Source: Oscillospiraceae bacterium | GTDB taxonomy: Bacteria > Bacillota > Clostridia > Oscillospirales > Oscillospiraceae | Direction: 5' to 3' | DNA length: 64,000 bases | Assembly: GCA_022846075.1 (NCBI GenBank) | Contig: AP025582.1 | Span: 3,100,001-3,164,000 of the forward strand | Part shown: one piece after another, positions 17,577-58,520 of the stretch | Position numbering within the stretch: the first letter of the stretch is position 1 | Layout: every line of letters begins with the position of its first letter | The notes under the pieces: generated by a model | Database searches by the model: none | Told to the model about the DNA's origin: nothing | Seen by the model: only the letters and a program-made list of their open reading frames with translations | Program-made: the position numbers and the translations under genes

Positions 17577-18238
17577 CCCGCCCTCCGGTCGGGGACGGGG
17601 GCAGGGCGGCCCCTGCCGGGGGTCCAGGACCGTTTCTTTTTTCGTGAAAAAAGAAACGGTCCTGGACGCCAAAGAAAAAAGCCAAACTAAATTTATGGCT
17701 GGCGACTCCTAACGACCGGCGCTCACGTCTGTCAACTCGCACTGCTCTTAGCGCCGCTGCCGCTGGGTACTGCTGTACAGACAGCGTTTGCAACTCATAG
17801 GCGCGCCTGGGCCAGGGAAGTTTGTCAAATAGGCTTCCCCTGGGGGAAGCTGTCGAGCGAAGCGAGACTGATGAGGGGAACTTATTGTTTCGCAGGGCCT
17901 TTCCCATATCCGCAGTTCCCCTCATCCGTCAGCCCTCCGGGCTGCCACCTTCCCCCAAGGGGAAGGCTAAGGACACGTGGTAAGGTAGATATCATTCACC
18001 CCCTCCCGCACACGAACCCCGGCGGCGCTACGAAGTGCGCCGCCGGGGTTTCCCCACCCTCTTGTGAACAACCCGGGGAGGTTTCCAAAGGAGGGGCGCC
18101 CGCAGGCGCCCCTCCTTTGGTCGTTTCAAGGGGTGGTCCCGGAGGGGGAAATCGAAATCCCCCTCCGGGTGCTTTCTTGGGGGGTCTGGGGGGCCATTCT
18201 TTCCAGAAAGAATGGCCCCCCAGGCTTTCCCCCACCTT
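17577..18238. repeat. Composite hairpin-train repeat R1
   Basis: A gene-free block between convergent genes. In order: a 22-bp perfect stem with a 2-nt loop (17622-17667, apex TTTCTTTTTTCGTGAAAAAA) followed by GCCAAAGAAAAA; a module with GCTTCCCCTGGGGGAAGC, GATGAGGGGAAC / GTTCCCCTCATC arms (about 17870-17926), AGCCCTCCGGGCT and CCTTCCCCCAAGGGGAAGG; then a module with AACCCCGGCGGCG / CGCCGCCGGGGTT (18015-18051), CCAAAGGAGGGGCGCC / GGCGCCCCTCCTTTGG (18085-18120), CCCGGAGGGGGA / TCCCCCTCCGGG and GGGGGGCCATTCTTTC / GAAAGAATGGCCCCCC. Related blocks occur at 36.3, 40.6, 51.3 and 57.8 kb. Short ORFs in it are artefacts. Confidence 0.85.
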
Positions 18239-18240
18239 TC

Positions 18241-20883
18241 TTAAAAGGTACCCGCCCCCACCCCGGCGGGCCGCCGGTCAGCCGGGGTCTCCTTCTTCCT
18301 CCGCCCCCGGCCCACGGCCTTGACGATCTCACAGATCACCACCGGCGTCACCGCCAGCGCCAGCACCACCGTCCACTCATGGACATCCATGGTCACGGTC
18401 TGGAACACCGCCTGGAGCGGCGGCAGACACAGCACTGCCAGCTGCATGGCCAGCCCCACCAAAAACGCCTTGTTCATGGCCGGATTGGAAAAGACCCCCA
18501 CGTGAAAAAGGGACTGATATTCGCTCCGGGCGTCGAAGGCGTGGAACAGCTGACAGAGGGTCAGGGTGGCGAAAGCCATGGTGTTGGCCAGGGCACTGGC
18601 CTCCCCGGGGTCGGAGAGCACGTACTCCCCCAGCCAGTAGGCCCCCAGGGTCAGCAGCCCCACCATGCACCCCTCCCAGGCCAGCCGCAGGGAGAATTTT
18701 TTGTTAAACAGGCTCTCGTGGGCGTCCCGGGGCCGCTGGTCCATGACCCCCTCCTCCACCGGCTCCACCCCCAGGGCCAGGGCGGGGAGGGCATCGGTCA
18801 CCAGATTGAGCCACAAAAGCTGCACCGGCACCAGGGGCATCTGGTGGAACCCCAGAACGGTGGCAAGGAAGATGGTCAAAATCTCCCCGATGTTGCAGGA
18901 GAGCAGGTAATGGATGGCCTTCTTGATGTTGGCGTAGATGCCCCGCCCCTCCGCCACGGCGGAGACGATGGTGGCGAAGTTGTCGTCGGTGAGGATCATG
19001 TCGGCGGCCTCCTTGGCCACGTCGGTGCCCGACTTGCCCATGGCGCAGCCGATGTGGGCGGCCTTGAGGGCGGGGGCGTCGTTCACCCCGTCCCCCGTCA
19101 TGGCCACCACCTGGCCCTTTTTGCGCCAGGCGTTGACGATGCGGGTCTTATGCTCGGGGGACACCCGGGCGTAGACGGAAAACTGATCCACGTCCTCCTC
19201 CAGGGTCTCCTGGGGCATAAAATCCAGGTCGGCCCCCGTGATGGCCAGGTCGCCGGGGCGGCAGATGCCCAGCTCCTTGGCGATGGCCACCGCCGTCAGC
19301 TTGTGGTCGCCGGTGATCATCACCGGGCGGATGCCGGCGGCCCAGCACTGCTCCACCGCCGCCTTGGCCTCGGGCCGGGGCGGGTCGATCATGCCGATGA
19401 GCCCCACGAAGGTGAGGTCTTTTTCCAACGTCTCCGCCGTCAGCTTCCCCGGCAGCCGGTCCAGGTCCCGGTAGGCCACCCCCAGCACCCGGAGGGCGCC
19501 GGCGGCCATGCGGTCGTTTTGGTCCAGGGCCGCCCGGCGGCGGGCGGGGGTCAGCTCACATTTTGAAAGAAGCACGTCGGGGGCCCCCTTCACGCAGACC
19601 CGCCAGCCGCCGCCGGGCTTTGCGTGAACGGTGGACATGAGCTTGCGGCCCGAGTCGAAGGGCACCTCCCCCTGCCGGGGCCGCTCCCGCTCCAGCTCGT
19701 TTTTATTGAGCCCCTCCTTGCGGGCGGCCTCCACCAGAGCCGCCTCGGTGGGCTCGCCGGTGACCGCCCCCCGCTCGTTCAAAACCGCGTCGCAGCACAA
19801 GGCACCCAGGGTCAGGGCCTCCCGCCGGTCGAAGCCGCCCAGGGTCCACACCTGGGTCACCGTCATCCTGTTCTGGGTCAGGGTCCCCGTCTTGTCCGAG
19901 CAGATGACCCCGGCGCAGCCCAGGGTCTCCACCGCGGGCAGCTTCTTGACGATGGCCCCGCGCCTCGCCATCCGCTGGACCCCCAGGGCCAGCACGATGG
20001 TGACGATGGCGGGCAGGCCCTCTGGGATGGCGGCCACCGCCAATGACACGGCGGTCATGAACATATCCAGTATGCCCTTCCCCTGGAGAAGCCCCACGCC
20101 GAACATAACGGCGCACACGCACAGGCAGACAAAGGACAGGGTCTTGGAGATCTCCCCCATCTTCCGCTGGAGGGGGGTCTCGGTCTCCTCCTGGTCCAGC
20201 AGGAGACCCGCCACCTTCCCCACCTCGCTGTCCATGCCGGTGGAGGTGACCACGCACACGCACCGCCCGGCGGTGATGACGGTGGAGCCCACCACCATGT
20301 TGTGCCGGTCGGCCAGGGGGGTGTCCGGGGGCAGGCCCTCCCCCGGGGCCTTGTCCACCGGCACCGACTCCCCGGTCATGGCGCTCTCGTCGGCCTTGCA
20401 GGCGGAGCCCTCCAAAATGCGGGCGTCGGCGGGTACCAGGTCCCCGGCCTCTAGGCGGATCAGATCCCCCGGCACCAGATCGCTGGCCGCCACCCGGACC
20501 TCCTTCCCGTCCCGGGTGGCCCGGGCCAGGGGGGCAGACATCTTTTTCAACGCCTCCAGCGCCCGCTCGGCGTTGTTCTCCTGGGAGATGGAGATGATGG
20601 CGTTCACCACCACGATGAGGAGGATGATGGCCGCGTCCAGCCAGTCCTCCCCCCCGCTGGAGAGGAAGGACAGCACCGCCGCCGCCAGCAGCACCAAAAT
20701 CATGGGGTCCTTCAGCTGCCCCAGCAGCCGGGCCGCCATGCTCTCCTTGGGTTTCCCCGCCAGTTCATTTAGGCCGTATGTACCCTTCCGCCGCTCCGCC
20801 TCCGCCGCCGCCAGCCCCCGCCGCCGGTCGGTCTCCAGGTCCCTCAGGGTCTCCCCCACACTTTTGCTGTGCCAGGCGCTCAT
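18241..20883 (-). CDS. P-type calcium-transporting ATPase
   Basis: An 880-residue type II P-ATPase. It has the phosphorylation motif ICSDKTGTLTQNRMTV, the actuator MTGESVPVDKA, the hinge VAMTGDGVNDAPALKAA, and ten predicted membrane helices. AAIPEGLPAIVTIVLALG is helix M4 with the PEGL Ca-binding motif, and NLVTDALPALALGVEP is in M6 with the N-x-x-T-D site. These residues fit a SERCA/PMCA-like Ca2+ (possibly Mn2+) exporter in the plasma membrane. AAGGAAGGA precedes ATG. Its stop codon directly abuts repeat R1, whose hairpins may terminate it. No regulator is adjacent. Confidence 0.92.
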   Translation of the reverse strand: MSAWHSKSVGETLRDLETDRRRGLAAAEAERRKGTYGLNELAGKPKESMAARLLGQLKDPMILVLLAAAVLSFLSSGGEDWLDAAIILLIVVVNAIISISQENNAERALEALKKMSAPLARATRDGKEVRVAASDLVPGDLIRLEAGDLVPADARILEGSACKADESAMTGESVPVDKAPGEGLPPDTPLADRHNMVVGSTVITAGRCVCVVTSTGMDSEVGKVAGLLLDQEETETPLQRKMGEISKTLSFVCLCVCAVMFGVGLLQGKGILDMFMTAVSLAVAAIPEGLPAIVTIVLALGVQRMARRGAIVKKLPAVETLGCAGVICSDKTGTLTQNRMTVTQVWTLGGFDRREALTLGALCCDAVLNERGAVTGEPTEAALVEAARKEGLNKNELERERPRQGEVPFDSGRKLMSTVHAKPGGGWRVCVKGAPDVLLSKCELTPARRRAALDQNDRMAAGALRVLGVAYRDLDRLPGKLTAETLEKDLTFVGLIGMIDPPRPEAKAAVEQCWAAGIRPVMITGDHKLTAVAIAKELGICRPGDLAITGADLDFMPQETLEEDVDQFSVYARVSPEHKTRIVNAWRKKGQVVAMTGDGVNDAPALKAAHIGCAMGKSGTDVAKEAADMILTDDNFATIVSAVAEGRGIYANIKKAIHYLLSCNIGEILTIFLATVLGFHQMPLVPVQLLWLNLVTDALPALALGVEPVEEGVMDQRPRDAHESLFNKKFSLRLAWEGCMVGLLTLGAYWLGEYVLSDPGEASALANTMAFATLTLCQLFHAFDARSEYQSLFHVGVFSNPAMNKAFLVGLAMQLAVLCLPPLQAVFQTVTMDVHEWTVVLALAVTPVVICEIVKAVGRGRRKKETPADRRPAGVGAGTF

Positions 20884-20944
20884 CGCTCTCGTCCTTCCTT
20901 TTCCACATTCTGGTAAGGATAGGATAAGCGTCCTGCTTGTCCGA

Positions 20945-21649
20945 TTACAAGGGAATCTTGGCGACTCGGGCCAGGGCCTTGAGGAAAACCTCGTTGTTGG
21001 GCGGCCGGTCCGCCCCGGTCAGGCCGGTGACCCGGCGGTAGGTCTCGGAATCCACCGCCCGGGCCGCCTTCACAAAGCTGCGGATATTCTTCTCCACGCA
21101 GTCATAGGAGGTGTCGTTGCTGATGGCCACTTCCAGGTAGATCTCCTTGAGCAGCTCATACCGGCGCCCCGCCATCAGCCCGGCGCATTGGGCGGCAAAG
21201 TCCCGGCCCTTGAGGGGCTTGCGCGTCCGGCCGGGGTCGTCCATCTCCTCCAACAGCTCCCCGCAGCGGCGGCGGACCCCGCCCGCCAGAAAGCGGATAT
21301 CGGCCACCACCTCGCTGTGGGCCACGGGCTTGACCAGAAAGAAGTCCGCCCCCGCCGCCAGGGCCGCGGAGCTCACGGCCTCATCGGCGCAGCGGGTGAT
21401 GACCATCACCTTGGCCTCTCCCCCCTTCGCCCGGTACCGGCGCAGCAGCTCCATCCCGCTGACGCCGGGCAGGACCAGATCCAGCAGAATGACGTCCGGC
21501 TCCCGGGCCCAGGCCAGCTCCAATCCCGTGAGCCCGTCCCCCGCCAGGCCGCAGGCCTCCATGCCGGCGGTGTTCTCCAGAAGGTCCGCCAGCATCCCCC
21601 GCTGGGCCGGATCATCCTCCACCACCAGCACTTGGATCACCCCGCTCAT
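20945..21649 (-). CDS. Spo0A-like response regulator
   Basis: A 234-residue protein. The receiver domain spans residues ~1-120: acidic pocket VVEDD, phospho-acceptor Asp in VILLDLVLPG, Thr in MVITR, Lys in FFLVKPV. The C-terminal ~100 residues (YELLKEIYLEVAIS, VEKNIRSFVKAAR, GLTGADRPPNNEVFLKAL) have the pattern of the Spo0A DNA-binding domain but are diverged. It is probably not the master Spo0A, whose C-terminus is much more conserved. No kinase is adjacent. It starts 1 bp after the stop of the upstream HTH gene, so the two are co-translated. Confidence 0.75.
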   Translation of the reverse strand: MSGVIQVLVVEDDPAQRGMLADLLENTAGMEACGLAGDGLTGLELAWAREPDVILLDLVLPGVSGMELLRRYRAKGGEAKVMVITRCADEAVSSAALAAGADFFLVKPVAHSEVVADIRFLAGGVRRRCGELLEEMDDPGRTRKPLKGRDFAAQCAGLMAGRRYELLKEIYLEVAISNDTSYDCVEKNIRSFVKAARAVDSETYRRVTGLTGADRPPNNEVFLKALARVAKIPL

Positions 21650-21650
21650 A

Positions 21651-22025
21651 TCACTCGTCTTCCGGGGCCAGGGTATCCAGGATCCCCCGCAGGAGGATGA
21701 TATTCCGGGCCAGGATGTCCCGCTCGATGGGGTTGAGCCTGCCCATATACTCGGCGGCCACCCCCGCCGGGCCCACCGCCTTGTCGTGGCCGTAGAGGAT
21801 ATAGTCGCTGGACACATCCAACGCCTTTACCAGCTTGGAAAATTTCCACGTGGTCATGCTCTGCTCTCCCTTCTCCACCTTGGAGAGAAATTGGGTGGAC
21901 GTATCCGCGGCCTCGGCCAGCTTTTCCATGGTCAACCCCTTGGCTTTGCGGGCGGCCCGGATCCGTTCCCCGATCGCCTTGATCTCCGGATCGATCTCTT
22001 TCTTGGCATTATTCTCGTCTTTCAT
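21651..22025 (-). CDS. XRE-family helix-turn-helix protein
   Basis: A 124-residue protein. The Cro/CI-type HTH spans about residues 18-75 (IGERIRAARKAKGLTMEKLA, DTSTQFLSKVEKGEQSM, KLVKALDVSSDYILYG). A ~45-residue tail (YMGRLNPIERDILARNIILL) may dimerise. AAGGTGGGG precedes ATG. It forms a two-gene operon with the Spo0A-like regulator and is probably a regulator of the same promoter. Its targets are unknown. Confidence 0.85.
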   Translation of the reverse strand: MKDENNAKKEIDPEIKAIGERIRAARKAKGLTMEKLAEAADTSTQFLSKVEKGEQSMTTWKFSKLVKALDVSSDYILYGHDKAVGPAGVAAEYMGRLNPIERDILARNIILLRGILDTLAPEDE

Positions 22026-22108
22026 TGACTATACCCCACCTTATAATAAGAATGATAGGTATAGCTTGCCACAACTGCGGCCTTATCAAAATCAATTATA
22101 GTTTCTAT

Positions 22109-22193
22109 ATTATACCACTATTATTTCAATTCTTTCATTTTGTCGATGTCGGTCGACAAGTTCTCCCCCATTTCTCCCTATAATCCGACAAAC
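22109..22193 (-). promoter_or_regulatory. Promoter with 0A-box-like operator upstream of the HTH/Spo0A-like operon
   Basis: On the minus strand a TATAAT -10 (22114-22109) lacks a good -35. Just upstream is a perfect dyad TTGTCGA-N6-TCGACAA (22140-22159), and a third related site GTTTGTCGG lies at 22193-22185. Spo0A boxes have the core TTTGTCGAA, so three 0A-like sites cluster here. A weak -35 with adjacent boxes is the usual layout of a Spo0A-activated sigma-A promoter. Confidence 0.55.
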
Positions 22194-22209
22194 TCCGCGC
22201 AAAACAAAG

Positions 22210-22241
22210 GCCGGGGAGACGTCCTGCGGCGTCTCCCCGGC
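22210..22241 (-). terminator. Terminator of the PrsA-type foldase gene
   Basis: GCCGGGGAGAC / GTCTCCCCGGC with a 10-nt loop, then CTTTGTTTTG on the minus strand. Confidence 0.8.
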
Positions 22242-22259
22242 GGGGTGTTTTTGGATGGT

Positions 22260-23468
22260 TCAGCCGCCCGCGGAGGCGGTTTCCGCGGGGCTGGCCGCCG
22301 GCTGGCTTTCGGCGGGGCTCTCCACGGGGGCCTCACTGGCCGCGGGGCTGGCGCTGGCCCGGGCCGCCTCCCTGGCGTCCAGGACGCTCTGAAGCCGGTC
22401 GTAGAAGGCTTTGGGGTCCAGCTCGTCATAGGCCTTGGTGGTCTTTACCTGGGCCTCGTCCAGCCACTTCTGGGTCAGCTGGTTGAACTTATAGTCGGCG
22501 TTGCACTCCTGCTTGGCCTGCTCCTGGTCCACGGCGATCCGCAGGATGATGTGATAGCCGTAATCGGTCTCGATGGGCTCGCTGACCTCCCCCACCGCCA
22601 GGGCCTTGGCACCCTCCTCGAACTCGGGGACCATCTGTCCGGCGTAGATGTAGGTGTAGCCCTGGGGATAGTAGAGGGCCCCGTCCTCTCCCCGGCCGTC
22701 CTCGCTGTACTCGTTCATCAGCTCGTCGAACTTGGCCTCGCTGTCCCCGGCCTCCTTGAGCTGCCGGCGCAGATCTTCGGCCTTCTCCATGGCCTGGGCC
22801 TTCTCCTCGTCGGTGAAGTCCTCATAGGACTGCCCGTCGGCGCTGATGTGCCGGGTGGAAATGAGGATATGCTTGGCGGCGTAGATGCCCTGCTGATCCA
22901 GATAGTCGCTGATGTCGGCGTCGGAGACGGTCAGCTCCCCCGCCTGCTCCAGCTTTTCCCGCAGGCCCTGGTTGAGGTAGTAGACCTGGTTGAGCTGGGT
23001 GAAGCCCTCCCGTGAAATGCACCGGGCGTCCAGCCAGGCCTGGAGCTGGTCCTCGCCCCCCAGCTGCTCGGCCACGGCGGCCAGCTCGTCCTCGATCTGC
23101 TTATGCTGTTCCTCGGTGAGGACCACCCCCTGCTCCCCGGCCTTGGTCTCGATGACCCGGTAGAGCTTGGCGGTCTCCAGGGCGTCGGCCTTCAGCGTGT
23201 CCCCCGTGGGGGTGCCGTCGGCGCTCAGGCTCTCCTCCCAGGCGGTGTCGTCCCTGAGCTTCCCGTAATACTTCTGCTGGGAGATGGCGTTCAAAAGCCA
23301 GAACAGGTATTCCTCGGTGTCCACGCTCTGGCCGTCCACCTGGACGATCTCGCTGTCCCGCTTCAGGTCGGCGGTCTGATAGGCCATGTCGTCGGGATCG
23401 GCCGTCACCCCGCAGCCCGCCAGCAGGGTCAGCGCCAGCGTCCCGGCGATCAGCTGTAACTTTTTCAT
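22260..23468 (-). CDS. Peptidylprolyl isomerase lipoprotein (PrsA/parvulin type)
   Basis: A 402-residue exported foldase. The signal peptide ends in the lipobox TLLAGC, so it is predicted to be a lipoprotein on the outer membrane face. A SurA/PrsA-like N-terminal chaperone region is followed by a parvulin domain (about 215-325) with AAKHILISTR, FDELMNEYSEDG and EPIETDYGYHIILR. The last ~40 residues are low-complexity Ser/Ala/Pro/Glu. The protein catalyses prolyl cis-trans isomerisation during folding of secreted proteins. GGAGGAG precedes ATG 23468. It is a monocistronic gene with its own promoter. Confidence 0.88.
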   Translation of the reverse strand: MKKLQLIAGTLALTLLAGCGVTADPDDMAYQTADLKRDSEIVQVDGQSVDTEEYLFWLLNAISQQKYYGKLRDDTAWEESLSADGTPTGDTLKADALETAKLYRVIETKAGEQGVVLTEEQHKQIEDELAAVAEQLGGEDQLQAWLDARCISREGFTQLNQVYYLNQGLREKLEQAGELTVSDADISDYLDQQGIYAAKHILISTRHISADGQSYEDFTDEEKAQAMEKAEDLRRQLKEAGDSEAKFDELMNEYSEDGRGEDGALYYPQGYTYIYAGQMVPEFEEGAKALAVGEVSEPIETDYGYHIILRIAVDQEQAKQECNADYKFNQLTQKWLDEAQVKTTKAYDELDPKAFYDRLQSVLDAREAARASASPAASEAPVESPAESQPAASPAETASAGG

Positions 23469-23505
23469 GGTTCTCCTCCTTGGTGCGTTTCGTGTCACGT
23501 GTGCC

Positions 23506-23534
23506 ATTGTACCACCAATTTCCTGTCGAGACAA
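23506..23534 (-). promoter_or_regulatory. Promoter of the PrsA-type foldase gene
   Basis: Minus strand TTGTCT (23534-23529), 17 bp, TACAAT (23511-23506). Confidence 0.75.
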
Positions 23535-23591
23535 TGAAAACCGGCGGCCCTTTTTGAAATGTTTACAAATTTCAGAAAAGCGGGCCCCGCG

Positions 23592-23630
23592 AAAAAAAGG
23601 CGGCGGCACGGCATCCGCCGTACCGCCGCC
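23592..23630 (-). terminator. Terminator of the thiolase gene
   Basis: A 14-bp stem GGCGGCGG...GCCGCC (one G-U pair in RNA) followed by seven U's on the minus strand. Confidence 0.9.
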
Positions 23631-23651
23631 CTTCCGTTCAGATCAAAAGGC

Positions 23652-24911
23652 TCAGCACTTCTCGAAGATGGTGGCCACGCCCTGGCCGCCGCCGATGCAC
23701 AGGGTGGCCAGGCCCTTCTTGGCCTCGGGCCGCTTCTGCATCTCGTGCAGGAGGGTGACGATGATCCGTGCGCCGGAGGCGCCCACCGGGTGGCCGATGG
23801 AGATGGCGCCGCCGTTGACGTTCACCTTGTCCATGTCGAAGCCCAGCTCCCGGGCCACGGCGATGGACTGGGCGGCAAAGGCCTCGTTGGCCTCCACCAG
23901 GTCGATGTCCTTGATGGTCACGCCGGCCTTCTTCATGGCCTCACGGGAGGCGGGCACGGGGCCCACGCCCATGATCTTGGGGTCCACGCCGCCGTGGCCC
24001 CAGCTCACCAGCTTGGCCATGGGCTTCAGGCCGTACTTCTCCACCGCCTCGCCGGAGGCCAGGAGGATGGCGGCGGCGCCGTCGTTGATGCCGGAGGCGT
24101 TGCCCGCGGTGACCCGCTGGACGTGCTTGTGGGCGTCGGCCTCGTGGATCTCCTTGGGCTCAAAGGTGTGGACCACCTCGTTCTCCACGCCGTCGGGGCC
24201 CACGGGGAAGGCGCCGCGCAGCTTGGCCAGGCTCTCCACGGTGGTGCCAGCCCGGGGGAACTCGTCCACCTTGAACTCCACCATCTCCTTCTTCTGCTTG
24301 ACCATGACGGGGACGATCTCGTCGGCGAACTTACCCGCCTTCTGGGCGGCCTCGGCCTTCTGCTGGGAAGAGGCGCCGAAGGCGTCCAGCTCCTCCCGGG
24401 TGATGCCCCACACGTCGCAGATGTTCTCGGCGGTGGTGCCCATGTGGTAGTTGTTGTAGGCATCCCACAGGCCGTCCTTGATCATGGTGTCCACCATCTT
24501 GGTGTCCCCCATGCGGGCGCCGTAGCGGCCGGTGGGGATGGCGTAGGGGGCGGCGGACATGTTCTCGGTGCCGCCGGCCACGATCACGTCGGCGTCGCCG
24601 CACATGATGGCCCGGGCGGCCTCAATGACGCTCTTCATGCCGGAGCCGCAGACCATGCCCACGGTGTAGGCGGGGACGGAGTAGGGCAGGCCGGCCTTCA
24701 CGCCCACCTGGCGGGCGGGGTTCTGGCCCAGGGCGGCGGTGAGGATGCAGCCGAACATCAGCTCGTCCACCTGCTCGGGCTTCACGTTGCCCCGCTTCAG
24801 GACTTCCTTGACCACGGCGGCGCCCAGGTCGGCGGCGGGGACGTCCTTCAGGCTTCCGCCGAAAGAACCAACGGCGGTCCGGCAGCAGTTCACGACATAG
24901 ACTTCCTTCAT
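23652..24911 (-). CDS. Acetyl-CoA acetyltransferase (thiolase)
   Basis: A 419-residue thiolase II. The nucleophile Cys is in [12 protein letters not shown] near residue 88, with the catalytic His in [13 protein letters not shown] and the second Cys in CIGGGQG. It condenses two acetyl-CoA to acetoacetyl-CoA, the first step of butyrate formation in gut Clostridia, or acts in reverse. Biosynthetic thiolases are ~392 residues. The extra ~25 residues lie before [14 protein letters not shown] and read [14 protein letters not shown] within them, an acidic/His-rich insertion. It has its own promoter and terminator and is not adjacent to other butyrate genes. Confidence 0.93.
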
Positions 24912-24976
24912 ATGTATGACCCTCCAAAAATAAATGTTTGTGGCCCGAAAGCCCGGTTTCTTCTCCGATAGCCCTT

Positions 24977-25005
24977 ATTATAAACGCCCGGTCTGAAAAA
25001 TGCAA
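24977..25005 (-). promoter_or_regulatory. Promoter of the thiolase gene
   Basis: Minus strand TTGCAT (25005-25000), 17 bp, TATAAT (24982-24977). Confidence 0.85.
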
Positions 25006-25046
25006 TACAAAGTTTGTGAAAAGTTTAACGTTTTTTCGATTAGGGA

Positions 25047-25083
25047 AAAGAGAGCGCCTCCGGCCGGGGCCGGAGGCGCTCTT
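25047..25083 (-). terminator. Terminator of the LPxTG surface protein gene
   Basis: AGAGCGCCTCCGGC / GCCGGAGGCGCTCT with a 4-nt loop, followed by CTTTTCCC on the minus strand. Confidence 0.8.
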
Positions 25084-25115
25084 CTCATGGCAGTTTTTTC
25101 AGGGGTTCAGCCTCT

Positions 25116-36269: not shown

Positions 36270-36948
36270 TTTTCCCGCCCTCCGGGCGGTGCGGGGGCAG
36301 GGCGGCCCCTGTCGGGGGCCCAAACCCGGTTTATGTTCTCAAGGACAGGGCCCTGGCCGGCACCGCCGGCCAGCCTACGCTAAAAACTTGCCACCGGCAA
36401 GTTTTCTGAACGCTGTGGTGGATGCCAAAGAAAAACGCCGTACTAAATATACAACTGGTAGCTCCTAACGACCGGCGCTCACATCTGTCAACTCCGTCTC
36501 CTCCTAGCGCCGCTGCCGCTGATTACTGCTGTACAGCCAACATTTGCAGCTCATTGGCGCGCCTGAGCCCGGGAAGTTTGTCAAATAGGCTTCCCCTGGG
36601 GGAAGCTGTCTGCGAAGCAGACTGATGAGGGGAACTTATTTCTTTAGCAGGGCCTTTCGTGTTTTCCCCAGTTCCCCTCATCCGTCAGCCCTCCGGGCTG
36701 CCACCTTCCCCCAAGGGAAGGCTAAAGACCAACCTTCTGTCAAGCACACGTCAGCGGCCGAGCGGCGCAAGAGGAATCACGTGTCGCACAGACGCTCCCG
36801 TGCTTTTCCCCCTTTCAATGAGCAGTAGACCTTCTACTAAGAAGGGAACCTGTGCGCAGGGCTGCACCAAAAGACTTTTCTTTAGGGGTCTGGGGGGTGT
36901 TTCTTTTCCTCGGGAAAAGAAACACCCCCCAGAAGGCCGTACCTTCCG
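36270..36948. repeat. Composite hairpin-train repeat R2
   Basis: It fills the pth-mfd gap, the only copy between co-directional genes. It begins with GCCCTCCGGGC-type and GGGCGGCCC sequences shared with R1, AAAACTTGCCACCGGCAAGTTTT-like stem (36383-36405), GATGCCAAAGAAAAACGCC, then the same CTAACGACCGGCGCTCAC segment, GCTTCCCCTGGGGGAAGC, GATGAGGGGAAC / GTTCCCCTCATC arms, CCTTCCCCCAAGGGAAGG, and ends with a GGGGGGTGTTTCTTTTCC / GGAAAAGAAACACCCCCC stem (36893-36931). The AACCCC and CCAAAGGAGGGG modules found in the other copies are absent. Confidence 0.85.
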
Positions 36949-36998
36949 AGGTGCATCGACCCCCCATTCAAACAACAAGATCCCCCTCCCTTTTCCCC

Positions 36999-40624: not shown

Positions 40625-41305
40625 GTGTTCCGTTTGATTGCTGCCTGCCTGCACGTCGGGACGTGCGTAAATCTGGGGGACATTTCTTTTCCCGAGGAAA
40701 AGAAACGCCGCCCCAGGCCCCCAAAGAAAAGTCTTTTGGTGCAAACCTGCTCGCAGACTCCTTTTTTAGTAGAATGTCTACTGCCCGAAGAAAGGGGTAT
40801 AAGCACGGGTGCGTCTGTGCGACACGTAGTCCCTTTAGCGCCGCTCGGCCGCTGACGTGTTCTTGACAGAAGGTTGGTCTTTAGCCTTCCCCTCGGGGGA
40901 AGGTGGCAGCCCGGAGGGCTGACGGATGAGGGGAACTGCGGATATGGGAAAGGCTTTGCTAGAAAGATAAGTTCCCCTCATCAGTCTGCTTCGCAGACAG
41001 CTTCCCCCAGGGGAAGCCCCAAACAAACGAACCCCGGGGCCGCACTTCGTAGCGGCCCCGGGGTTTTCTTACGCTCATGTGGACAGCCAGAGGTGGTTTC
41101 CAAAGGAGGGGCACCCACAGGCGCCCCTCCTTTGGTCGTTGAGAGGGGGTTCAGAGGGACAGAGTCGAAACCGCAGCGTTAAGAAAATGTACCTGTGGCA
41201 CATTTTAGCGTAGGCCGCCCGGCTATGCCGGGCGGGTCTCTCTTTCAAGGGGAGCACAGCAGGGGGGCCATCTTTTCCGCGTGGAAAAGATGGTCCCCCA
41301 GTCGC
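40625..41305. repeat. Composite hairpin-train repeat R3
   Basis: Lies between convergent mfd and tadA. Order: GCACGTCGGGACGTGC (40651-40666); GGGGGACATTTCTTTTCC / GGAAAAGAAACGCCGCCCC (about 40674-40715) with CCCCCAAAGAAAAGTC tail; a conserved ~120-bp segment ending GCGCCGCTCGGCCGCTGACG; the GGAAGG/GATGAGGGGAAC module in the opposite orientation to R1/R2; CTTCCCCCAGGGGAAG; AACCCCGGGGCCGC / GCGGCCCCGGGGTT (41030-41065); CCAAAGGAGGGGCACC / GGCGCCCCTCCTTTGG (41100-41136); and GGGGGCCATCTTTTCC / GGAAAAGATGGTCCCCC. No protein gene is supported. Confidence 0.85.
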
Positions 41306-41339
41306 CCCCGCCTTCCCCAAGGCGGAAAACGCAAGAAAG

Positions 41340-42843: not shown

Positions 42844-42846
42844 TCC

Positions 42847-48242: not shown

Positions 48243-48243
48243 C

Positions 48244-48984: not shown

Positions 48985-48990
48985 ATATAC

Positions 48991-49028
48991 AAAAAAGCCC
49001 GGCGGTCTTATGACCGCCGGGCTTTTTT
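48991..49028. terminator. Bidirectional terminator between ABC operon and LysR gene
   Basis: AAAAAAGCCCGGCGGTC / GACCGCCGGGCTTTTTT with TTAT loop. Confidence 0.95.
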
Positions 49029-49046
49029 CTCTCCTTCGCCGCCGGA

Positions 49047-49934: not shown

Positions 49935-49957
49935 GGCGCTTTCCCCATTCCATTCTA

Positions 49958-49982
49958 AATATTTATGTTAGTCTTAAATATT
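49958..49982. promoter_or_regulatory. LysR-type operator dyad
   Basis: AATATTTA-N9-TAAATATT, 25 bp, fits the T-N11-A rule. It ends 6 bp before the antiporter -35, the usual activator position. Confidence 0.7.
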
Positions 49983-49987
49983 ATGAT

Positions 49988-50016
49988 TTGATTTTATCAC
50001 GCTCTGCCCCTATAAT
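49988..50016 (+). promoter_or_regulatory. Antiporter promoter
   Basis: TTGATT (49988-49993), 17 bp, TATAAT (50011-50016). Confidence 0.85.
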
Positions 50017-50068
50017 CAAGCGATCGGAAGGAAGGAACCAATTCCCTTCCTGAAAGGAGACTTCCGCC

Positions 50069-51292: not shown

Positions 51293-51297
51293 AACAG

Positions 51298-51333
51298 AAA
51301 CCGCCTTCCCTAGCGATAGGGAAGGCGGTTTTT
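51298..51333 (+). terminator. Terminator of the antiporter gene
   Basis: AAACCGCCTTCCCTA / TAGGGAAGGCGGTTT with GCGA loop, T-run. Confidence 0.93.
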
Positions 51334-51337
51334 ATCG

Positions 51338-51962
51338 ATGCCTGATTGCACGTCAAACGTGCGCTTATCTGGGGGACATTTCTTTTCCCGAGGAAAAGAA
51401 ACGCCACCCCAGACCCCCAAAGAAAAGTCTTTGGTGCAGCCTTGCGCGCAGTTTCCCTTTTCAGCAGCAGGTCTACTGCCCGTTGATAGGGGTATAAGCG
51501 CGGGATCGTCTGTGCGACACGTAGTCCCTTTAGCGCCGCTCGGCCGCTGACGTGTTCCTGACAGAAGGTAGGTCTTAGCCTTCCCCCTGGGGGAAGGTGG
51601 CAGCCCGAAGGGCTGACGGATGAGGGGAACTGCGGATAACAGCAAAGGCTCTGCCAAGCGATAAGTTCCCCTCATCAGTCTCGCTCCGCTCGCCAGCTTC
51701 AACGACTTCGCTTGCATCAAGTGGCCCTAACGCTATCGCTAAGGGCCACTAGACCCCAGGGGAAGCCCCAAACAAACGAACCCCGTGGCCGCTGCGAAGT
51801 GCGGCCCCGGGGTTTTCCCACCCTCTTGTAAACATCCCGGGGAGGTTTCCAAAGGAGGGGCACCCACAGGTGCCCCTCCTTTGGTCGTTGAGAGAGAAGG
51901 TCTCGGGGGAGGTCTTTTCCAGAAAAGACCTCCCCCGAGCTTTCCCCCACCTTTCGAAAGGT
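51338..51962. repeat. Composite hairpin-train repeat R4
   Basis: Lies between convergent genes and has the same order and orientation as R3: GCACGTCAAACGTGC (51349-51363); GGGGGACATTTCTTTTCC / GGAAAAGAAACGCCACCCC with CCCCCAAAGAAAAGTC tail; GCGCCGCTCGGCCGCTGACG segment; GATGAGGGGAAC / GTTCCCCTCATC arms; a ~54-bp insertion (51698-51753) also found in R5; AACCCCGTGGCCGC...GCGGCCCCGGGGTT; CCAAAGGAGGGGCACC / GGTGCCCCTCCTTTGG; and TCGGGGGAGGTCTTTTC / GAAAAGACCTCCCCCGA, whose arms differ wholly from those of R1, R3 and R5 yet pair fully. Confidence 0.85.
51698..51753. repeat. Nested insertion in R4 (also 58193-58248 in R5)
   Basis: About 54 bp starting CAACGACTTCGCTTGCATC and containing AGTGGCCCT...AGGGCCACT as inverted arms interrupts the CTTCCCCCAGGGGAAG hairpin present intact in R3. 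The R5 copy appears identical. Confidence 0.75.
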
Positions 51963-51969
51963 GGGGACC

Positions 51970-52458
51970 TTATTTCCCCACAAACTTATGGGCCTCATTC
52001 ACCGCCCGCTCGACGGCGTTGAGGATATTCTGATACCCGGTGCACCGGCACAGATGCCCGGAGATGAGCTTGCGCAGCTCCTCCCGGGTGTACTGCTTCC
52101 CGCTGCCCACGATCTCCACCGCCGACATGATGATGCCCGGCGTGCAGAACCCGCACTGGATGGCGGCCTCCTCCACGAAGGCCTTCTGAATGGGTGACAA
52201 CTCCCCGTTTTCATCCTGGAGTCCTTCTACGGTGAGTATTTTCTTTCCCTGGGCCCACACCGACAGGTAAATGCAGGAGTCGATGGCCTCCCCGTCCACC
52301 AGGACGGTGCAGGCGCCGCACTCCCCCACCTCGCAGCCCTTCTTCACGCTGGTCAGGCCCAGCCGCTCCCGCAGGGTGTCGGCCAGGGACTCCCGGGGGT
52401 CGATGCCCACCTCCACATCCCGGCCGTTGACGATACACTTCAAAATTTCCATGCTCAT
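51970..52458 (-). CDS. Molybdenum hydroxylase iron-sulfur subunit (2x 2Fe-2S)
   Basis: 162 residues. N-terminal plant-type ferredoxin site CEVGECGACTV with a further Cys in AIDSCIY, and C-terminal site QCGFCTPG...LCRCTGYQ: eight Cys for two 2Fe-2S clusters. It passes electrons from the molybdenum site to FAD. It is the third subunit gene; ATG 52458 overlaps the FAD subunit stop (ATGA). Stop abuts R4. Confidence 0.95.
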   Translation of the reverse strand: MSMEILKCIVNGRDVEVGIDPRESLADTLRERLGLTSVKKGCEVGECGACTVLVDGEAIDSCIYLSVWAQGKKILTVEGLQDENGELSPIQKAFVEEAAIQCGFCTPGIIMSAVEIVGSGKQYTREELRKLISGHLCRCTGYQNILNAVERAVNEAHKFVGK

Positions 52459-53336
52459 ACCTTCGCGCCCCCTTTCCGGGCGGCCTCGGCCAGAGCCCGG
52501 CCCGACAGCTCTTCCACCAGTTGGAGCCGGAAGGCCTTGGAGGCCCGCCAGCTGTCCCGGGGATTGACCTCCGCCAGGGCGGCGGCGCCGATTTTCTCGA
52601 TGGCCTCCCCAATGGACAGTCCCGCCATGGCCTTTTCGGTCTCCAGGCACCGGAAGGGCACCGGCCCGGCCACGCCGAAGGCCAGCCGCAGGCCGTCCAC
52701 CCTGGTCTTGTCCGCCGACAGCTTCACCAGGCAGGACACCCCCAGGGTGGCGATGTCCATGGCGTTTCGCATGGCGTACTTGATATAGTGTCCGCTCCAG
52801 CCCTCATAGTGATCCTTGGGAATGACGATCTTGACGAGCAGCTCACCCGGCTCCAGCGCCACCTTCCCCACGCCCTTGTACCACTGGTCGATGGGAATTT
52901 CCCGCTCCCCCTTGGGCCCCCTGACCCGTAGGACGGCTCCGAAGGCCATCTGGGTGGAGGCGGTGTCGGCGGAGGTGATGCCGTTGCAGAGGTTCCCCCC
53001 CAGGGTCCCCACCGCCCGGAGCTGGGGCCCGCCCGCCATATCGGCGGCCTCCCCCAGCACGGGGACGGTCCCGCGGATCACGTCGCTGAAGGTGCACCCC
53101 CGGAAGGTGGTCAGCGGCCCAATCTCCACGTCGCCGTTGGGGGCCAGCGCCACCCCCTCCAGCTCCTCCCTCAGCTCGTGAATGGATACCAGGGAGCACC
53201 CGGCGTCCTTCCCCTCCCGGATCTTGATGAGCACGTCAGTGCCCCCGGCAATGACAATGGCCCGGGGGTCCCTTTGCAAGGCCTCAATGGCGTCGTCCAC
53301 GCTCTTGGCCTGATAAATAGATGTAATATCGTACAC
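52455..53336 (-). CDS. Molybdenum hydroxylase FAD-binding subunit
   Basis: 293 residues. FAD-binding PCMH/CO-dehydrogenase type domain: IVIAGGTDVLIKIREG binds the pyrophosphate, then GPQLRAVGTLGGNLCNGITSAD (the T-x-G-G-N motif) and a CO-dehydrogenase C-terminal domain. It transfers electrons from the clusters to NAD+ or another acceptor. It lies 48 bp after the large subunit gene. Confidence 0.93.
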   Translation of the reverse strand: MYDITSIYQAKSVDDAIEALQRDPRAIVIAGGTDVLIKIREGKDAGCSLVSIHELREELEGVALAPNGDVEIGPLTTFRGCTFSDVIRGTVPVLGEAADMAGGPQLRAVGTLGGNLCNGITSADTASTQMAFGAVLRVRGPKGEREIPIDQWYKGVGKVALEPGELLVKIVIPKDHYEGWSGHYIKYAMRNAMDIATLGVSCLVKLSADKTRVDGLRLAFGVAGPVPFRCLETEKAMAGLSIGEAIEKIGAAALAEVNPRDSWRASKAFRLQLVEELSGRALAEAARKGGAKV

Positions 53337-53384
53337 GATAACACCCCTTTGTAATCAAGGTTGTCTGTTCAAACGGGCCGCTGC

Positions 53385-55688
53385 TCAGATCAGCCCCGCC
53401 CTGGTGAACTCCTCCACCAGCTTTTGGGGGCTCAGGGGCAGGCGGTTCACCGCCACCCCCGTGGCGTGGAGCAGGGCATTGCGCACCGCCGGAGCCACCG
53501 GGATGGCCGGGGGCTCTCCCAGGGCCTTGTTCCCGAAGGGGCCCGAGGGGTCGTCGCTCTCCACAAAGAGGGCGTGGAGCTCGGGGTGGTCCATGGCGGT
53601 GGGCAGCTTGTAGTCCAGCAGGTTGCCGTTCAAAAGCCGTCCCTTGCCGTCGAACTTCATCTCCTCGGACAGGGCGTAGCCCAGTCCCATGGACATCCCC
53701 CCGTGGACCTGGGCCTCGGCCAGCTTGGGGTTGATAAGCCTGCCCGAGTCGTGGACGTTCACGATCTGAAGCACCGTCACCTTCCCCAGGGGGATATCCA
53801 CCTCCACCTCGGCGAAGCAGCAGCCGAAGGCGAAGGTGTTGTCCTTGCACTGGTGGGTCCCCTCGGCGGCGATGTGGACCGAGTGGCGGAAGGAGTAGAA
53901 GGCCTCCTGGGCCAGGTCGTACATCTTCAAAACCACTTCCCCGGTCCCGGCGTCCACGATCTCCCCCTCCCGCACGTCCAGCGCCCTGGCGGGCCGCTCC
54001 AGCATCTCGGCGGCGTAGTCCAGGATCTTGCCCTTGAACTCCTCCCCGGTCTGCTTGATGGCCATACCGGTGACGTAGGTCTGCCGGGAGGCGTAGGCCC
54101 CCGTGTCGAAGGGGGCGGTGTCGGTGTCCTGGCTGGAGACGATATGTACCCGCCCGGAGGGGAACCCGGCTGCCTGGGCGGCCATCTGGGTGAACACGGT
54201 GTCCCCCCCCTGGCCGATCTCGGTGGCCCCCAGCTGGAGCTGGACCGACCCGTCCTGGTTCAGCACCATCCGGGCGGCGGCGGTCTCCAGGGAGATGGGC
54301 CACACGCCGGTCTTATAGGAGAAGATGGCCATGCCCACGCCCCGGCGCACCGGCCCGGTCTGGTCCCGGTATTTCTCCCGCAGCTCCTCCCAGCGGATGA
54401 ACTCCTTGCCCTTCTCCATGCACTCCCGCAGGGCCGTGGAGTGGCAGGTGATGCCGTTGGTGGGGTCCACGTAGCCCAGGGGCATGATGTTCTTCATGCG
54501 GAAGGCGTAGGGGTCCCAGCCCATCTCCCTGGCCACGTCGTCCATGAAGCACTCGGAGAAGAAGCAGCTCTGGGGGATGCCGTAGCCCCGCATGGCGCCG
54601 GGGGCGGGGAGGTTGGTATAGACGGTGAAGGCCTCCGCGTGGTGGGCCAGGGCGTCGGGATAGCACTGGCGGAAGCCGGTGATGGTGTTGGCCACGATGG
54701 CGTTGCCGTGGGAGGCGTAGGAGCCCTGGTCGGAGATGGCCTTGGTCCGCCGGGCCATGATGCGCATATCCTTCCCCACCGCCGCCTCCACGTCCATGGA
54801 GATGGCGTGGCGGGAGCGGGTGTTCTGGAATACCTCCTCCCGGGTCAGCTCCAGCTTCACGCACCGGCCCCCCACCGCGCGGGTGAGGAAGGCGTTCAAG
54901 GGCTCGTACAGCACCTCCTGCTTGTTGCCGAAGCCGCCGCCGATGTAGGGCTTGATGACCCGGATATCACCCCAGCCGATGCCAAGGGCCTGGCCGCAGA
55001 CCCGCCGCACGATGTGGGGGATCTGGGTGGAGGACACCACCACGATGCGCCCGCCCTCCATGTAGGCGTAGGACACGGCGGGCTCGATGTGGCAGTGCTG
55101 GACCATCTGGGTGGCGTAGTGGCCGGAAAAGTGGAGGTACTGGGGGTCGGAGAGCACCTCCTCCGCGTTCTTCACCTGGGCCCCCTCGCTGAGGATCTGG
55201 AGATCCATATGCCGCAGTACGTTGTCGGGGTGCTCGTCGTGGACCGCCGCCGCCCCAGGGGCCATGGCCGCCTGGGGATCCAGCGCCGGCTCCCACTCCT
55301 CATATTCCACCCGGATAGTCCGCAGGGCCCTCTGGGCGGTGATCTCGTCCTCGGCCACCACGGCGGCCACGTCGTCACCGTAGTAGCGGACCCGGTCGGT
55401 GAGCATCTTCCGGTCGCACACGTCCTGGTGGGCTTCCTCCACGCTCCAGGGATGCCCCGGGGTGGGGTATTGGATATCCGGCACATCGAAGCAGGTGACG
55501 ATCTTCACCACGCCGGGGAGCTTCATGGCCTCCTCGGTGTGGATGGCCTTCACCCGCCCGTTGGCGATGGTGCTGTGCAGGATCTTGGCCACCAGATGGG
55601 GCCGGGGGATCATGTCGTCGGTGTACTTGGCCCGTCCGGCGGCCTTGTCGGCGGCGTCCACCCGGATCATGCTTTTGCCAACTTCCAC
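53385..55688 (-). CDS. Molybdenum hydroxylase large (molybdopterin-binding) subunit, xanthine dehydrogenase-like
   Basis: 767 residues. AAGRAKYTDD-type N-terminal fold, GGGFGNKQE near residue 250 (molybdopterin contact), AMRGYGIPQS, QLGATEIGQGGDTVF and the C-terminal GEPPAIPVAPAVRNAL with the catalytic Glu. GTG 55688 is set by AAGGAGG 7 nt upstream. Together with the two small subunits it would hydroxylate a purine or other N-heterocycle; Se-type maturation genes lie 7 kb away. The exact substrate is not readable. Confidence 0.92.
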   Translation of the reverse strand: MEVGKSMIRVDAADKAAGRAKYTDDMIPRPHLVAKILHSTIANGRVKAIHTEEAMKLPGVVKIVTCFDVPDIQYPTPGHPWSVEEAHQDVCDRKMLTDRVRYYGDDVAAVVAEDEITAQRALRTIRVEYEEWEPALDPQAAMAPGAAAVHDEHPDNVLRHMDLQILSEGAQVKNAEEVLSDPQYLHFSGHYATQMVQHCHIEPAVSYAYMEGGRIVVVSSTQIPHIVRRVCGQALGIGWGDIRVIKPYIGGGFGNKQEVLYEPLNAFLTRAVGGRCVKLELTREEVFQNTRSRHAISMDVEAAVGKDMRIMARRTKAISDQGSYASHGNAIVANTITGFRQCYPDALAHHAEAFTVYTNLPAPGAMRGYGIPQSCFFSECFMDDVAREMGWDPYAFRMKNIMPLGYVDPTNGITCHSTALRECMEKGKEFIRWEELREKYRDQTGPVRRGVGMAIFSYKTGVWPISLETAAARMVLNQDGSVQLQLGATEIGQGGDTVFTQMAAQAAGFPSGRVHIVSSQDTDTAPFDTGAYASRQTYVTGMAIKQTGEEFKGKILDYAAEMLERPARALDVREGEIVDAGTGEVVLKMYDLAQEAFYSFRHSVHIAAEGTHQCKDNTFAFGCCFAEVEVDIPLGKVTVLQIVNVHDSGRLINPKLAEAQVHGGMSMGLGYALSEEMKFDGKGRLLNGNLLDYKLPTAMDHPELHALFVESDDPSGPFGNKALGEPPAIPVAPAVRNALLHATGVAVNRLPLSPQKLVEEFTRAGLI

Positions 55689-55821
55689 AAAAAAACCTCC
55701 TTCGCACGGTTTCATTGCCATCATTGTAACCCATCCCATGCAAAAAAGAAAGTCAGTTTCCAAAAAAATTTATTTTCTCTGGGCTTCCAGGGCCGGGCCG
55801 TCCTCCGCCCCTCTCCCTCCC

Positions 55822-55850
55822 TTGACCTCCCCCACCCTCCGGTGTACAAT
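55822..55850 (+). promoter_or_regulatory. Promoter of the hydantoinase-mocA operon
   Basis: TTGACC (55822-55827), 17 bp, TACAAT (55845-55850). Confidence 0.85.
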
Positions 55851-55896
55851 GAACCCACCATTTCAGTTCCGCGGATCAACAGAAAGGAGCGATCCC

Positions 55897-57273
55897 ATGT
55901 CCATCCTCCTCCAAAACGGCACCCTGGTCCTCCCCGACGGCCCCCGGAAGGGCGACCTCCGGGTGGAAAAGGGCATCATCACCGCCATCGCCGGCCGCCT
56001 GCCCCCCCAGGACAGCCAGGTCATCGACTGCGCGGGCAAGCTGGTCTTTCCCGGCTTCATCGACACCCACACCCATTTCGAGATGAACAAGGGCCTGCCC
56101 AACCAGACCGCCGACGACTGGGCCACCGGCACCCGCTCGGCCCTCTGCGGCGGCACCACCACCGTCCTGGACTTCGCCGAGCCCGCCCGGGGGGCCTCCC
56201 TCCAGTCCGCCCTGGACACCTGGCACGGCCGGGCCGACGGGCGGGCCTGCTGCAACTACTCCTTCCACATGACCATCAAGGACTGGAACGACGCCATCCG
56301 GGCCGAGCTGCCCCGGATGACCGCCCAGGGCATCACCTCTTATAAGATCTACCTGGCCTACGCCATGCGGGTTTCGGACACCGTGGCCTACGAGGCCATC
56401 CGGGCCATCGGCCGGGAGGGGGGCGTGGTGGGCTGCCACTGCGAAAACGGCGAGCTGGTGGACGAAGGCATTGCCGCCCAGAAGGCGGCGGGCCGCCTGG
56501 GCCCCGATGCCCACCCGGATGCCCGCCCCCCCGCCGTGGAGGCCGAGGCGGTAAACCGCTACCTCACCATCGCCGAGTTGGCCGGGGTCCCCGTCAACAT
56601 CGTCCACCTCTCCACCCTCCGGGGCCTGGAGGTGGTCCGGGCCGCCCGGGCCCGGGGCCAGAAGCTCTACGTGGAGACCTGCCCCCAGTACCTCATGCTG
56701 GACGACAGCGTCTACCACCTCCCCGGCTTTGAGAGCGCCAAATATGTCTTTGCCCCGCCCGCCCGCTCCCCCGAAAACAAGGAGGCCCTCTGGCAGGCGG
56801 TGGCCGACGGCGCCGTGGACACCATCGGCACCGACCACTGCTCCTTCTCCACCGCCACCAAGGCCCTGGGCCGGGAGGACTTCTCCAAGATCCCCAACGG
56901 CATGCCCGGGGTGGAGGACCGGGTGCGCCTCCTCTATACCTACGGCGTGGCCGCGGGCCGGATCTCCCTCTCCCGCATGACCGAGCTGCTCTCCTCCAAC
57001 CCGGCTAAACTCTTCGGCATGTACCCCCAAAAGGGTGCCCTGGCGGTGGGTTCCGACGGCGATATTGTAATTTATGACCCCAATTCTACCAACAGTATTC
57101 AGGCGTCCACCAACCACTCGGCCTGCGACTACGACCCCTACGAGGGCACCCCCGTCACCGGCCGGGTGGACACCGTCCTCCTCAACGGCGAGCCCGCGGT
57201 CCGGGACGGCGCCCTCCTTCTGGAGGGCCGGGGCCGGTTCATCCCCCGGGGCCCGGCCCAGTTCTGGCGATGA
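55897..57273 (+). CDS. hydA: Dihydropyrimidinase/hydantoinase
   Basis: 458 residues of the amidohydrolase superfamily. Metal ligands: FIDTHTHFEM (HxH), carboxylated Lys in SYKIYLAYAM, His in VGCHCENG, His in VNIVHLS, Asp in IGTDHCSF. Opens cyclic diamides such as hydantoin, dihydropyrimidine or related purine breakdown products. AGAAAGGAG precedes ATG. Divergent from the molybdenum hydroxylase genes and overlapping mocA (ATGA), so it belongs to the same catabolic set. Confidence 0.9.
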   Translation: MSILLQNGTLVLPDGPRKGDLRVEKGIITAIAGRLPPQDSQVIDCAGKLVFPGFIDTHTHFEMNKGLPNQTADDWATGTRSALCGGTTTVLDFAEPARGASLQSALDTWHGRADGRACCNYSFHMTIKDWNDAIRAELPRMTAQGITSYKIYLAYAMRVSDTVAYEAIRAIGREGGVVGCHCENGELVDEGIAAQKAAGRLGPDAHPDARPPAVEAEAVNRYLTIAELAGVPVNIVHLSTLRGLEVVRAARARGQKLYVETCPQYLMLDDSVYHLPGFESAKYVFAPPARSPENKEALWQAVADGAVDTIGTDHCSFSTATKALGREDFSKIPNGMPGVEDRVRLLYTYGVAAGRISLSRMTELLSSNPAKLFGMYPQKGALAVGSDGDIVIYDPNSTNSIQASTNHSACDYDPYEGTPVTGRVDTVLLNGEPAVRDGALLLEGRGRFIPRGPAQFWR

Positions 57274-57836
57274 GCGCTCCAGTCTCCGCCGTCCTTCTGG
57301 CCTCCGGCCTCTCCCGCCGCTACGGCTCCAACAAGCTGCTGGAGCCCGTGGACGGCCTGCCCCTCTACCGCCGGGCCTTCGCCGCCCTCCCCGCCCCCCT
57401 CTTCCACCGGGCGGCGGTGGTGAGCTGTTACGACGAGATCCTCCGGGCGGCGGAGGGGGCGGGCTACCTCCCCGTTTTCAACCCCGCCCCGGAGGAGGGC
57501 CAGTCCCTCTCCCTCCGCCTGGGCCTGGAGGCGGTGGCGGAGGGCTCCGCCGCCGTCCTCTTCTCGGTCTGTGACCAGCCCCGCCTGACCCAGGAGAGCG
57601 TAAAAGCCCTCCTGGCCGCCCACCAACGCCGGCCCGGCCGCATCACCGCCCTCTCCCACCGGGGCCGCCGGGGCAACCCGGTCATCTTCCCCGCCCGCTA
57701 TTTTCCCGAGCTGATGGCCCTCACCGGCGACACCGGCGGCGCCCCCATCCTCCGGGCTCACCCGGAGGCCCTCCAGCTGGTGGAGGCCGCTTCCCCGGCG
57801 GAGCTGGAGGATATGGACGTTCCTCTTCACCCTTGA
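57270..57836 (+). CDS. mocA: Molybdenum cofactor cytidylyltransferase-like protein MocA
   Basis: 188 residues. Nucleotide-binding start VSAVLLASGLSRRYGSNKLL and VLFSVCDQPRLT with the metal-binding Asp, then HRGRRGNPVIFPARYF and GDTGGAPIL. The family (MobA/MocA/NTP_transf_3) attaches CMP or another nucleotide to molybdopterin; placement next to the hydroxylase genes supports MocA. Stop lies just before R5. Confidence 0.85.
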   Translation: MSAPVSAVLLASGLSRRYGSNKLLEPVDGLPLYRRAFAALPAPLFHRAAVVSCYDEILRAAEGAGYLPVFNPAPEEGQSLSLRLGLEAVAEGSAAVLFSVCDQPRLTQESVKALLAAHQRRPGRITALSHRGRRGNPVIFPARYFPELMALTGDTGGAPILRAHPEALQLVEAASPAELEDMDVPLHP

Positions 57837-57837
57837 T

Positions 57838-58520
57838 TGACTGCACGTCAAACGTGCGTTTTTCTGGGGGACATTTCTTTTCCCGAGGAAAAGAAACGCC
57901 GCCCCAGACCCCCAAAGAAAAGTCTTAGGTGCTGACCTGCTCGCAGTTTCCCTTTTCAGTAGGAGGTCTACTGCTCGAAGAAGGGGTATAAACACGGGAG
58001 CGTCTGTGCGACACGTGGTCCTTCTTGCGCCGCTGCCGCTGACATGTTCTTGACAGGAGGTTGGTCTTTAGCCTTCCCCCAGGGGGAAGGTGGCAGCCCG
58101 AAGGGCTGACGGATGAGGGGAACTGAGGGTAATAGCAAAGGCCCTACTAAAGAGATAAGCTCCCCTCATCAGTCTGCTTCGCAGACAGCTTCAACGACTT
58201 CGCTTGCATCAAGTGGCCCTAACGCTATCGCTAAGGGCCACTAGACCCCAGGGGAAGCCCCAAACAAACAAACCCCGTGGCCGCACTTTGTGGCGGCCAC
58301 GGGGTTTTCCCACGTTCTTGTGAACAACCCGGGGAGGATTCCAAAGGAGGGGCACCTGTGGGTGCCCCTCCTTTGGTCGTTTCAAGAGGTGGCCCTGGAG
58401 GGGGAAATCGAAATCCCCCTCCGGGCGTCTTTTCTGGGGGGTCTGGGGGGCCATCTTTTCCACGCGGAAAAGATGGCCCCCCAGTCGGTACTGCCTTCCA
58501 AAAGGCGGCACCCCCAAATA
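57838..58520. repeat. Composite hairpin-train repeat R5
   Basis: Lies between convergent mocA and permease genes with the same order as R3 and R4: GCACGTCAAACGTGC (57843-57857); CATTTCTTTTCC / GGAAAAGAAACG stem with CCCCCAAAGAAAAGTC tail; GATGAGGGGAAC / GTTCCCCTCATC-related arms; the nested insertion (58193-58248); AACCCCGTGGCCGC / GCGGCCACGGGGTT; CCAAAGGAGGGGCACC / GGTGCCCCTCCTTTGG; CTGGAGGGGGA / TCCCCCTCCGG; GGGGGGCCATCTTTTCC / GGAAAAGATGGCCCCCC. No gene is supported in it. Confidence 0.85.

Follow-up and report, generated by a model that had tools for sequence, protein, structure and literature searches.

The window considered here, a 64,000-nt stretch of contig AP025582.1, contains five long hairpin-rich intergenic composites, R1–R5, which we examined in place, counting the family to which they belong both genome-wide and in fetched regions. 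All five were recovered where an earlier note on this DNA had put them. Among the best 20 of 38 direct repeat families and the best 25 of 40 inverted pairs in the window they are the source of most long repeats, the others listed being tRNA genes, rRNA-operon repeats and weak matches in coding DNA. The composites and the reference copies of their modules are (window coordinates):

17577..18223, no strand: R1 composite, the sole X-core-Z cluster found
36274..36955, no strand: R2 composite, between pth and mfd, consisting of X with W (36274-36590), the core on the plus strand (36590-36725) and an inverted Y (36727-36955)
40646..41308, no strand: R3 composite
51343..51939, no strand: R4 composite
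57838..58488, no strand: R5 composite
36590..36725, plus strand: reference copy of the core, with outer self-hairpins, two inner variable hairpins and a loop of ~40 nt, its arms ending in GATGAGGGG / CCCCTCATC
57915..58066, plus strand: reference copy of Ymid, containing GCGCCGCTGCCGCTGA, which is common to X and to unit A of genus relatives
41175..41245, plus strand: reference copy of the two-hairpin module W, which elsewhere is found inside X, Y, Z and another W
58189..58250, plus strand: reference copy of the hairpin module ins, which sits on the tip of the outer hairpin of the core

The composites are nested palindromes, each combining a core of ~137 nt with arms X or Y and a right part Z, and the smaller hairpins W and ins are placed in the loops or tips of other hairpins. 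The core, a two-arm hairpin element, also occurs by itself; it is enclosed by X and Y, which form the two arms of an imperfect palindrome, and Z replaces one of these arms in many copies. R1, R3, R4 and R5 lie between convergent genes, as had been claimed for four of the five, and R2 sits between the co-directional pth and mfd, both identified by Pfam. The accompanying claim that stop codons touch both edges was too strong, as modules and flanking genes are separated by 2–376 nt (56/18 for R1, 13/160 for R2, 28/376 for R3, 51/81 for R4 and 2/38 for R5). At 4/5, the convergent share in the window is atypical, since over all fetched regions it is 17 of 67 module clusters.

In the half-core, GAAGGTG-N-CGGATGAGGG, the letters of the inner segment vary freely and the hairpin is kept: an inner stem of at least 4 pairs is present in 20 of the 22 distinct segments of this genome and in 17 of the 23 from named genome loci, with shuffle rates of 0.075 and 0.024, respectively (0.029 for viral contigs). 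Two inverted units folding into a hairpin, as expected of a repetitive extragenic palindromic (REP) or REPIN family, were found for 50 of 57 own half-cores, counted as a second arm within 150 nt (0 in the control interval); the same count gave 58/62 at the named loci, which had been chosen by the two-arm pattern (control 0), and 28/126 in viral contigs (control 2). An outer self-hairpin stands directly 5' of the half-core in 50/57 own, 57/62 named and 88/126 viral cases. The G-T to A-C mismatches of the inner hairpins (3:1 own, 11:7 viral contigs, 2:0 named genomes) are too few to tell RNA from DNA folding. Rfam 15 contained no family above gathering score in R1–R5, and four own and ten relative loci gave only weak matches to unrelated families, all below gathering score. 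A structured-RNA reading of unit A was dropped because folding of 19 copies from relatives supported hardly any pairs, whichever strand was folded. One real T-box was seen in L198, outside the element.

The strict core motif GATGAGGGGANNT has 45 forward and 43 reverse matches in the genome compared with none for the reversed control, so its repetition is not a matter of chance; by hand count these 88 matches fall at ~53 sites. With genes called by a simple codon-usage gene caller, 66 of the 67 module clusters are free of called genes; the remaining one (2,644,887-2,645,728) consists of two places joined across a gene. Flanking genes are convergent for 17 clusters, co-directional for 49 and divergent for one, against a background of 26/150/44 among the 220 gaps of at least 60 nt in the fetched regions, whether or not they hold an element; divergent gaps are depleted in elements (p=7e-5) and convergent gaps enriched (p=0.010). 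Within co-directional gaps elements lie a median of 42 nt from the stop and 139 nt from the next start, the upstream gene's stop being the nearer side in 39/49. The family is thus intergenic and downstream of genes, and the contrary case, repeats confined to this stretch or placed randomly within genes, did not occur. REP/REPIN placement is described as intergenic, between convergent and co-directional genes (PMC3733652, excerpt). We consider it likely that the family is a new, nested and composite form of REP/RIME-like palindromic mobile repeats, R1–R5 being non-autonomous copies that nest in one another. This is one of the two readings offered in the earlier note, a miniature mobile or REP-like element assembled from modules, and it is supported by the many dispersed copies, the absence of R2 from five relatives, the nesting and the intergenic placement.

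The other reading offered there, strong bidirectional terminators, here taken as maintained by selection at gene 3' ends, leaves the placement unexplained, and terminator activity, though possible, is not distinctive of the elements. On any one strand, about half of the composites have a terminator-like hairpin, above shuffles, and 12 of 44 have a stem followed by a T-run on both strands; the remaining half, however, have none on that strand, and 49/67 clusters lie in co-directional gaps. Hairpins on both strands are as frequent in the few element-free convergent gaps (8/9) as in the element-bearing ones (14/17; small numbers), and a scan of 50-60 kb, with R4 and R5 inside, returned 10 sites against 7.2 (standard deviation 2.5) in shuffled sequence, which is within chance. 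Nor would a terminator need 650 nt in fixed order. We regard terminators as an improbable explanation of the family, a role at 3' ends being possible as a side effect.

Relative to its neighbour the core has a constant orientation, in 7/7 adjacent pairs with X and 36/36 with Y (43/43 in total), so the modules do not flip freely. The suggestion that modules move or flip is therefore half right: W, ins and the core turn up singly or in several positions, whereas flipping of the core against X or Y is not seen. Similarly, the module described as inverted in R3–R5 compared to R1–R2 does lie on the opposite strand, but it is fixed with respect to its X or Y neighbour. W breaks the outer Y hairpin in at least nine copies, lies inside X in R2 and three other copies and inside Z in R3 and three other copies, and, by eye, sits within a second W in two places, 89.9 kb and 2.378 Mb. 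In seven cores, R5 among them, ins occupies one shared position, with 94–100% identity to the copy in R5; this suggests onward copying of a core together with its ins. An eighth match (78%) is at another place. In three copies a GTAG-type palindrome replaces the core at the Y-Z junction. GTAG-type palindromes form a second dispersed family in this genome, with 71 matches to GGCGGATANTATCCGCCCCTAC at up to 3 mismatches and no Y1 transposase gene found. An X-Y copy at 2.764 Mb, considered as an empty core site, retains the outer stem and was read as a deletion.

One-ended and mosaic copies are common (13/68 clusters are Y-core only and 17/68 core only), which speaks against DDE-type miniature inverted-repeat transposable elements, short transposons bounded by terminal inverted repeats and flanked by target duplications. 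The Y-left and Z-right ends are indeed similar hairpins in inverted orientation, but of nine solo cores seven have no target-site duplication and two have one of 3-4 nt, the same as random pairs. No DDE transposase enclosed by the same ends, as in an autonomous copy, was seen, no family search aimed at DDE having been made. Such an origin is, in our opinion, extremely unlikely.

The R2 site can be compared with genus relatives, where the pth-mfd gap, 853 nt here, measures 115 (L235), 135 (L239) and 231 nt (L238); in L236 and L237, which have the same sequence, it is 1036 nt with an apparent gene inside. By eye, the element was not seen in the gap of these five relatives (four distinct sequences), and the promoter-like stretch ahead of mfd (here TTGACC/TATACT) is conserved. 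Nine further mfd loci in which pth was not found are uninformative on R2.

With REPs, REPINs and bacterial interspersed mosaic elements (BIMEs) the family shares inverted hairpin pairs, intergenic placement, the lack of a clear target duplication and conserved pairing. GTGG is the tag of some REPs (PMC6006769, excerpt), and here, formed by GAAGGTG and the following G, it adjoins the core's left inner hairpin in 52/57 own half-cores (18/22 distinct own segments), which would favour kinship. In contrast to these families, the tag is inconstant (12/23 distinct named segments) and absent on the core's other arm, which reads GAAGCTG (by eye), the core has two arms and 137 nt, and no Y1 transposase was found in this genome or beside the cores of relatives. 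REPINs are duplicated by REP-associated tyrosine transposases (RAYTs; PMC8049555, excerpt); since no Y1 gene was found here, the family cannot be filed as a REPIN, although it may work like one.

Along the chromosome, where dnaA, dnaN, recF, gyrB and gyrA, as named from their sequences, lie at coordinate 1, strict core matches are absent from 1.14-2.27 Mb (35% of the chromosome), the chance of such a void being ~1e-10 if the 53 sites are independent. The looser half-core pattern (41 forward and 36 reverse matches genome-wide) enters the void at 1.157 and 1.415 Mb, two of the 27 forward matches listed, and a degenerate core is found there at 1.486 Mb. Two families of palindromic repeats are sparse in this third of the chromosome, around the terminus.

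Several results weigh against mobile repeats of this kind. The Y1 transposase family PF01797 has 0 matches in this genome, 5 of 14 control genomes being positive, so the RAYT that marks a REPIN host was not found. PF01797 is present in 10 of 12 relatives bearing the core or unit A, and around all 18 Y1 matches (17 stretches in 10 relatives) there is neither a half-core nor a unit A motif, one isolated core 10-mer lying in L384. In viral contigs the inner stem is kept in just 32/70 distinct segments, so the viral half-core set includes chance matches. The R2 comparison, being between species, shows presence and absence and not recent movement. The terminus-side depletion is in part general, and since GTAG repeats share it in part (10/71 matches in the 35% of the chromosome at 1.14-2.27 Mb), it does not single out the core family. 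Finally, unit Y opposes the fork direction in 32/42 copies (p=0.0009), and in co-directional gaps it runs against the fork in 24/31 and along the gene in only 15/31. This counts in favour of the mobile reading, but the bias was noticed before testing, the copies are not independent and the terminus was set as the chromosome midpoint.

The void and the fork bias might instead point to chromosome-organising sites, a replication-oriented, origin-side family serving segregation, nucleoid folding or fork handling. The position of dnaA-gyrA at coordinate 1, the missing strict cores and the 32/42 Y copies opposing the fork would be consistent with such a role. However, the void is not absolute, given the looser half-cores and the degenerate core, GTAG repeats are thin there too, and the full-length Y-core is unmatched in 59 other genomes, 15 of them of the genus (best 11 candidates each). 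We find this role very unlikely.

If R1–R5 are mobile palindromic repeats, one strand would fold at the replication fork and then be copied or inserted, with a single-strand-specific enzyme, not found in this genome today, acting in trans, and recombination between palindromes would swap the arms. Retention behind genes probably reflects the removal by selection of insertions that harm genes or promoters, and the retained copies probably exert mild 3'-end effects, on termination or on mRNA ends. Copying via single-stranded DNA at forks would fit the lack of clear target duplications, the kept hairpins and the orientation of Y against the fork. Elements of the IS200/IS605 type work from the lagging-strand template (PMC6006769, excerpt), and by this analogy a single-strand, fork-linked route is plausible.

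Outside this genome, the two-arm core pattern was found in 70 stretches among 84,980 species genomes, of which, by hand count, 51 are from Clostridia, the metagenome-assembled genome SIG504 alone accounting for 32, and 19 come from elsewhere; the earlier note's mention of similar repeats in other gut Clostridia is confirmed for the core. Reading the flanks of the 19 showed the complete or almost complete core anatomy in L102, L163, L169 and L116, all alphaproteobacterial, one core arm in L162 (Xanthomonas), and an outer hairpin without the inner one in L103, L107 and L161, and the remainder look like chance or unrelated hairpins. The strict core is not in 393 other genomes of the order, among which there is no other genus member; the looser half-core is in 8/147 genomes, own included, and has at least 120 matches in viral contigs. 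Against plasmids the core gave two 30-nt matches, in Novosphingobium. Unit A is represented by its 18-mer in 8/15 other genus genomes (reversed control 0), eight chosen copies align over long invariant stretches, and X and Y seem to derive from it. Z-like modules follow unit A in L199 and L204 (by eye). Plasmids and phages contained no match to unit A, and of 13 viral-contig stretches with its 18-mer only L228 resembles a real unit (by eye). In a partial literature search we found no published description of the core or unit A in Clostridia. In the genus relatives L208 and L218 unit A lies upstream of a gene that resembles plsX, perhaps an old shared site.

RIMEs (Rhizobium-specific intergenic mosaic elements) are repeated intergenic mosaics (PMC2573895, excerpt), as are the composites here. 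By eye, records of Rhizobium, Shinella and Aureimonas (L116, L169 and L163) contain the letters and anatomy of the core in full or almost so, the core being the part compared with rhizobia. The core may also resemble the RIME sequence itself. Cyanobacteria have small nested palindromic repeats, likewise with palindromes inside palindromes, but the composites here are much longer and of fixed order. A more daring and rather doubtful proposal is that the core represents one mobile family of Oscillospirales and alphaproteobacteria, perhaps also Xanthomonas, moved by an unrecognised non-RAYT, replication-coupled single-strand enzyme and acting as the point of exchange around which every species builds palindromes of its own (here X, Y and Z). 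If the main reading is right, the same constant letters with free but paired hairpins would be shared by very distant bacteria, without the expected transposase here; the spread of REP-like repeats would become testable, the core providing an exact motif for tracing the enzyme, and nested copies would yield a relative order of insertion. The family may also account for long hairpin-rich gaps and spurious open reading frames in genomes of this group.

Two further observations concern other repeats. In 4 of the 17 Y1 stretches (L383, L384, L385 and L387) RAYT-like genes carry a pair of GTAG repeats within the reading frame, encoding VGADIIRP-like and GRIISAPT-like peptides that flank the HUH segment; the letters differ and the palindromes mostly persist, least in L387. 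Within the window, another hairpin repeat (CTTTCTCTTTCAAGAGAAAG) adjoins tRNA genes of the rRNA operon at 7337-7410 and 10861-10934.
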